A stretch of 36,614 nt of DNA from Candidatus Methanomethylicia archaeon (lineage in GTDB: Archaea > Thermoproteota > Methanomethylicia > CALHIW01). The notes beneath the pieces were generated by a model. It made no database searches. It was not told where the DNA came from and worked only from the letters and a program-made list of their open reading frames with translations. Positions 936 through 2,162 of the stretch are shown one piece after another. The stretch lies in the NCBI GenBank assembly GCA_938030905.1, contig CALHIW010000034.1:1-36614 (forward strand), in the 5' to 3' direction. Each line of letters opens with the position of its first letter. Within the stretch, counting starts at the first letter, position 1. The position numbers and the translations under genes are program-made.

Positions 936-2162
936 GTGGTGTATAGCATGGTCGTATATTCGTCAATTATAGGTGTTGGAAGAACTGTTTTTGGCGAGCA
1001 TTACGAAAGGAATCCTGAAGATCTTATTGAGGAAGCAGGTCTAAACGCTCTTATAAACGCTAATATCGAAAGAAAAGATATTGAAGCTATATACATTAGT
1101 GACTACTTTCTACAGATAACAAATAAAATTGGAATTGAAGAGGGATTTCTAGCTGAACTATTGAATCTCAACATCCCAATGGAGAGATTTAGATCATTTA
1201 GCTCTGCCCTAATGAATGCATGTCTAGCCATATATTCAGGACGCTATAATGTCATACTTGTTGGTGGTGTTGAGAAGATTAGTGATAGGCTTGATAAAAT
1301 AAGAGATGACTTAATGATGCTCTATGACCCTTGGACCTACTACAGCGGTGGGACTCCTGAATCTAGTCATGAGCTTATGCTCCGAGAATACATTAAGACT
1401 CACAATATAGTAGATAAATCTTACAATAAGTTTATGGAATCACTAGCCTATGTCTCAGTTAAGAACCATAAATTCGGCTCAAGAAATAAATATGCTCAGT
1501 TTTATGGTAGGGAGATTAAGATTGATGATGTTTTAAATGCTAGATGCATCTCTAAAGGCATATTGGGAATGTATGATTATGCACCGCCAATAACCGGCTA
1601 TCCCTCAGATGGCTCTACTGCAGCTATTATTGCTAATCCACGTATAGCATATGAATATTCAGATAAGCCAATACATATTATAGGTCTAGGCTCAGCTACC
1701 GACTATATATCTTACACTCTAAGACCTAAAAGAATCGGATTTAAATCTGTAGAACTTGCAGGTAGTAAAGCTCTAGGCGAAGCCGGAATATCTATAAATA
1801 ATATTCAAATAGCCGAACTCTATGATCAATCAACAATTATGGAAATGGCTTTACTTGAAGATCTAGGTTTTTGCGACTATGGTAAATCATGGGAGCACAT
1901 CTATAATAGCTATGTTGAAAATAAGCTTTACTATGAACTAGACGATGGAGTTTTATATGTTAATACTAATGGTGGCTTGAAAGCTGATGGAAATCCTCTC
2001 GGAGCATTAGGAGGTGCACAGATATTTGAAGTAATTTCACAATTGAGGGGTGTATCCAATGATAGACAGATTAAAGTTGAAAATGAGTTGAAGTATGGAT
2101 TAACAGTTGAACTTGAGGGATTTGGTACTAAGGCCTATGTATTCGTATTTAGAGGTGATTAA
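936..2162 (+). CDS. Thiolase-superfamily protein (SCP2/archaeal thiolase-like), probably catalytically degenerate; start may be 948
   Basis: VILVGGVEKIS, IAELYDQSTIMEMALLEDLGF, NGGLKADGNPLGALGGAQIFEVISQLRG align with archaeal thiolase blocks; stop abuts the next gene's ATG. Confidence 0.85.
   Translation: MVYSMVVYSSIIGVGRTVFGEHYERNPEDLIEEAGLNALINANIERKDIEAIYISDYFLQITNKIGIEEGFLAELLNLNIPMERFRSFSSALMNACLAIYSGRYNVILVGGVEKISDRLDKIRDDLMMLYDPWTYYSGGTPESSHELMLREYIKTHNIVDKSYNKFMESLAYVSVKNHKFGSRNKYAQFYGREIKIDDVLNARCISKGILGMYDYAPPITGYPSDGSTAAIIANPRIAYEYSDKPIHIIGLGSATDYISYTLRPKRIGFKSVELAGSKALGEAGISINNIQIAELYDQSTIMEMALLEDLGFCDYGKSWEHIYNSYVENKLYYELDDGVLYVNTNGGLKADGNPLGALGGAQIFEVISQLRGVSNDRQIKVENELKYGLTVELEGFGTKAYVFVFRGD

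Follow-up and report, generated by a model that had tools for sequence, protein, structure and literature searches.

In the complex of thiolase and 3-hydroxy-3-methylglutaryl-coenzyme A (HMG-CoA) synthase (HMGCS), the direct handover of acetoacetyl-CoA to HMGCS is believed to drive a reaction that is in itself unfavourable. In this study, a locus related to this complex was analysed in contig CALHIW010000034.1 from a Candidatus Methanomethylicia archaeon; the window is the whole stretch of 36,614 nucleotides. On its forward strand, at positions 936-2162, the window carries a thiolase-like gene whose product lacks the nucleophile cysteine, and the next gene encodes a fusion of DUF35 and HMGCS. 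No account of this Cys-less family or of the fusion was found in the open-licence literature, subscription papers being outside the coverage.

Four described systems are close to this locus in different respects. The acetoacetyl-CoA thiolase of Methanothermococcus thermolithotrophicus (PDB codes: 6ESQ, 6ET9) is likewise linked to DUF35 and HMGCS genes. The Friedel-Crafts acylase PhlABC is a complex of the same three parts. Its HMGCS-like subunit has neither the catalytic Cys nor the catalytic Glu, and the reaction takes place on the thiolase-like subunit only, yet the partner without catalytic residues is still needed (PMC6392133). The steroid side-chain aldolases Ltp2 (6OK1) and Sal (9MYR) have a thiolase fold, a DUF35 partner, and a Tyr-Asp (YD) motif, and lack the nucleophile Cys (PMC12329534). 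ST0096 of Sulfolobus tokodaii (4YZO) is an archaeal thiolase-like protein in which the aligned nucleophile block and HDxx motif are also without Cys; however, ST0096 retains GHP and the loop length.

The thiolase-like gene and its remodelled active site

The open reading frame (ORF) at 936-2162 encodes 408 amino acids from a GTG codon and contains all of the motifs quoted in the initial annotation, which had recognised a thiolase framework with altered catalytic motifs. The true start is probably the ATG at 948, giving a protein of 404 amino acids (948-2162), since most close relatives begin at the equivalent position. The GTG at 936 appears an unlikely start because it abuts the TATA-like stretch TTTATATA (927-934, forward strand), which lies upstream of the operon. 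Residue numbers are nevertheless counted from the GTG at 936. Conservation was assessed on 210 distinct relatives from Bathyarchaeia, Culexarchaea, and allied Thermoproteota.

The block that formerly held the nucleophile, IPMERFR-SFSSALMNAC (residues 80-96; 1173-1223), has a gap of four residues, including the Cys, between R86 and S87. Compared with the canonical sister family described below, these four residues are absent in all aligned Cys-less members; their place would be where the helix that usually carries the Cys begins, and in the sister alignment and the predicted structure this helix continues from the Ser of the CAS motif. Thus, the nucleophile Cys is indeed gone, as had been proposed, but FRSF does not replace CASG position by position, since AACA, with its Cys, is missing relative to the Cys-bearing sister. 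The other altered motifs were all read in the ORF: YDQST (residues 296-300; 1821-1835) replaces HDCFT, GGLKADGNPLGA (residues 346-357; 1971-2006) has GNP in place of GHP, and ELEGFGTK (residues 392-399; 2109-2132) replaces (H)NIGGTG. With respect to the sister, the base Cys of HDCF has become Gln and its Phe Ser, the His of GHP has become Asn, and HN-x-GG has become E-x-EG, while further coordinated changes are Glu to R86, His to D214, Tyr to H145 (1368-1370), and Arg to A361.

In the Cys-less family, S87, H145, D297, S299, and N353 are present in 210/210 members, Q298 in 209/210, and E392 in 208/208, and E394 is also nearly invariant. Across the four motifs, column entropy averages 0.20 bits, as opposed to 1.16 elsewhere. 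Between the Cys-less family and the canonical sister, 37 columns are constant but different, with every catalytic position among them. A metagenomic sequence, L198, was considered as a half-way form and rejected, because it belongs fully to the divergent clade and departs from it by a single change, Asn to His at 353. In the closest relatives only (P0003-P0006), an insertion of five residues precedes the SDG motif (window 1584-1601; residues 217-222, PPITGYP).

Unfused operon thiolases of the f17 genomes (L012, L166, L167, L168, L169, and L171), in HMGCS-thiolase-DUF35 operons, have HDSF or HDNF, and GNP except in L169, with the nucleophile Cys intact. In five genomes re-searched, this operon thiolase is the only Thiolase_N match, a result that rests on a biased set of 20 genomes picked for having few matches. 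Since the f17 thiolases combine GNP with an intact Cys and have no other thiolase beside them in their genomes, GNP alone is no marker of lost thiolase function, and the deletion of the Cys is the telling change.

Predicted fold and nearest structures

The thiolase framework was borne out by both sequence family and fold. Thiolase_N and Thiolase_C_1 of Pfam match the ORF above the cut-off, and in NCBIfam and PDB sequence searches the ORF groups with archaeal thiolases, although far under the curated NCBIfam cut-offs (199.5 bits for NF053570 versus 600 bits). An AlphaFold2 model built from 80 sequences has a predicted local distance difference test (pLDDT) value of 91.7 and a predicted template modelling (pTM) score of 0.93; it was used in place of an earlier model from 20 sequences, which had poor active-site loops. 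The best PDB matches of the model are the thiolase chains 6ET9_C and 6ESQ_A (template modelling (TM) score 0.87; root-mean-square deviation 2.2-2.4), ahead of Ltp2 and Sal. Identity to the M. thermolithotrophicus thiolase is ~31%; in contrast to that enzyme, the nucleophile Cys is deleted here, HDCF is changed to YDQS, GHP to GNP, and HNxGG to ELEG, and DUF35 is fused to HMGCS.

The DUF35-HMGCS fusion

The second gene (2163-3674, forward strand) starts with an ATG at the base right after the TAA of the thiolase-like gene. The translational adjacency noted in the initial annotation is therefore real, but the partner is not a plain HMGCS: its 503 amino acids comprise a DUF35 zinc-ribbon/OB domain followed by an archaeal HMGCS, so that all three components of the complex are encoded together, two of them as one protein. 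The zinc ribbon (2226-2279) has Cys 22, 25, 36, and 39 in 83/83 fusions with sequence there. By alignment, the catalytic residues of HMGCS are Glu223 (2829-2831; Glu82 of M. thermolithotrophicus) and Cys262 (2946-2948; Cys114 of M. thermolithotrophicus), each found in 84/84 fusions, as is His390 (3330-3332).

The fusion lies directly downstream in 77/77 genome loci where the contig extends beyond the Cys-less gene, and in 14/14 further loci, which are partly from the same lineages. Any other neighbour occurs in at most 51 of 81 loci, and among the neighbours of these 81 loci no conserved metabolic cluster hinting at a substrate was found. In each of the 20 genomes tested, no strong HMGCS other than the fusion is present, and 19 of the 20 have HMG-CoA reductase; the fused HMGCS therefore very probably serves the mevalonate pathway.

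In G001, G024, and G007 (loci L133, L135, and L144), a second, weaker HMGCS-like protein (164-192 bits to TIGR00748) adjoins a Cys-thiolase with ENRCAS, and the pair may form an acyl-condensing system, of the PhlABC type or another. Directly downstream of the fusion in the window, a convergent pair encodes a GlcD-like FAD oxidase and a CCG iron-sulfur protein (3677-6277, reverse strand); this arrangement is not kept beside the operon in relatives.

Phylogeny and selection

Relatives of the Cys-less protein number in the thousands and are mostly from Bathyarchaeia. In the phylogenetic tree, the Cys-less proteins group in a single branch (100/100), to which L011 is sister (100/99), although long branches were flagged and the placement of the Cys-less branch needs caution. 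The sister is a thiolase from G046 with all canonical motifs, and its family, 38-42% identical to the Cys-less proteins, has many members, nearly all with canonical motifs (C/HDCF/GHP/HNIGG). In G046 and at nine metagenomic loci (L172-L179 and L182), the sister thiolase is located upstream of the same DUF35-HMGCS fusion. It shares the operon, the fusion partner, and the clade features TNK and DDLM with the Cys-less protein, whereas it retains EAACxS, HDCF, GHP, and HNIGGTG. Since the canonical sister sits at the same fusion operon, the fusion is older than the loss of the thiolase residues, which on present evidence happened once.

As sampled, mean pairwise identity is 0.70 in the Cys-less and canonical families alike. 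The ratio of nonsynonymous to synonymous substitution rates (dN/dS) is mostly 0.03-0.17 in pairs of close relatives, near the value of the adjacent HMGCS. The low dN/dS and the near invariance of the new residues indicate purifying selection rather than decay. Rigid conservation despite the lost catalytic residues indicates that the Cys-less protein has a different job.

Other thiolases in the genomes

A second canonical thiolase/HMGCS set in the source genome had been suggested as a check. It was found only in part: a separate canonical thiolase of the Cys/HDCF type, with its own DUF35, is encoded on contig C75, but no HMGCS other than the fused one was found in this assembly (G000), which is 62% complete. 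Among genomes at least 92% complete that carry the Cys-less gene, 21 of 22 have another thiolase-superfamily gene, which in G005 is only a fragment where the contig ends. Direct reading of the sequences showed the Cys/HDCF type in 18 genomes, including the source genome. By comparison, 39 of the 108 genomes without the Cys-less gene in the same panel show just one thiolase match, and a Cys-bearing operon thiolase can be the sole thiolase, as in G046 and other lineages. The difference between genomes with and without the Cys-less gene gave p = 0.046 with the same search and p = 0.002 with a wider search that was fully applied to one side only. Since the compared genomes are related, this link between an extra thiolase and the Cys-less gene is suggestive only. 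In G040, two tandem Cys-less thiolase-like ORFs (YDPF/GNP and NDLF/GYG) stand beside a canonical thiolase-DUF35 pair (L117, 2353-4702, reverse strand).

Possible functions of the Cys-less protein

The reading that we favour, with moderate confidence, is that of a retired thiolase: descended from the acetoacetyl-CoA thiolase subunit of the archaeal complex, the protein would now be a non-thiolytic, CoA-ester-binding, obligate partner of DUF35-HMGCS. It is supported by the predicted fold, the nucleophile deletion, the coordinated and conserved replacements, the invariable linkage to the fusion, purifying selection, and the canonical sister at the same operon. According to this proposal, the Cys-less protein would still join the complex via DUF35; its remodelled pocket would bind a CoA ester or pantetheine beside the HMGCS active site, in place of forming an acetyl-cysteine; and acetoacetyl-CoA for HMGCS would be supplied by a separate Cys-thiolase encoded elsewhere in the genome. 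PhlABC may serve as a mirror-image precedent by analogy, since in it the active subunit is PhlC, which is thiolase-like, and the HMGCS-like PhlA is the inactive one, the reverse of the situation here. Several points weigh against a retired thiolase. A mere scaffold need not hold new polar residues invariant in an old active site, a pattern that would fit new chemistry equally; as judged from the alignments, a new pocket that is conserved almost without exception speaks for ligand binding or new chemistry rather than for a passive scaffold. The f17 case tempers the initial reading of motif changes as loss. Several thiolases are common in archaea without the Cys-less protein, so that extra thiolases are weak evidence, and no further Thiolase_N match was found in G079 (97% complete), a single absence that is compatible with the incompleteness of a metagenome-assembled genome.

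It is quite possible, though tentative, that the protein is instead a new enzyme, in which a pocket of R86, H145, D214, Y296, Q298, S299, N353, E392, and E394 would carry out acid-base C-C chemistry on a CoA ester without an acyl-cysteine, feeding or draining HMGCS. The 37 constant-but-different columns, every catalytic position included, and the near invariance of the new pocket residues are in its favour, as are the aldolase precedents Ltp2 and Sal (PMC12329534). However, the base Tyr of Ltp2/Sal is not invariant here: residue 296 is Tyr in 194 members, Asn in 13, which form a sub-group, and His (two) or Cys (one) in 3 of 210. The second catalytic residue of Sal, the acid Cys304 of YDCY, is absent, aligning with Gln298 in 209/210; the partner is HMGCS rather than a hydratase; the neighbouring genes point to no substrate; and the nearest fold is the 6ESQ/6ET9 thiolase rather than Ltp2 or Sal. 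A more specific version, that the carboxylate/amide/Tyr pocket (E392, E394, Q298, N353, R86, H145, and D214) performs a C-C bond or enolisation step at mevalonate entry, and that Bathyarchaeia and their relatives start isoprenoids without a covalent acetyl-thiolase, is doubtful. It is improbable that the protein is a cryptic thiolase in which Cys96, Ser87, or a Cys contributed by HMGCS takes over as nucleophile. Although Ser87 is found in 210/210 members and Cys96 in 201/210, Cys96 lies within helix 88-100 and is Tyr, Thr, Ser, or His in the other nine; the counterpart of Ser87 in the canonical CAS motif is the Ser, not the Cys; and the general-base Cys and the His of GHP are gone as well. The Cys of MNACLAI (Cys96), raised earlier as a possible intact nucleophile, was rejected upon alignment, since the sister family carries its equivalent together with the true nucleophile. 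The missing motifs in one metagenome-assembled genome could also have indicated a decaying gene or an assembly error, but this is refuted almost beyond doubt, since over 200 distinct sequences share these changes, with intact frames and low dN/dS.

Implications

The observation extends past one genome, as the enzyme pair of the DUF35-HMGCS operon concerns the membrane-lipid precursors of a large archaeal group. In this group, mostly Bathyarchaeia, the genes of the complex are fused and linked, while the thiolase chemistry appears to have been removed and the new pocket frozen. The canonical sister with the same fusion offers an ideal comparison pair. Either the first step of lipid synthesis may be uncoupled in these archaea, or the pocket may do something new.
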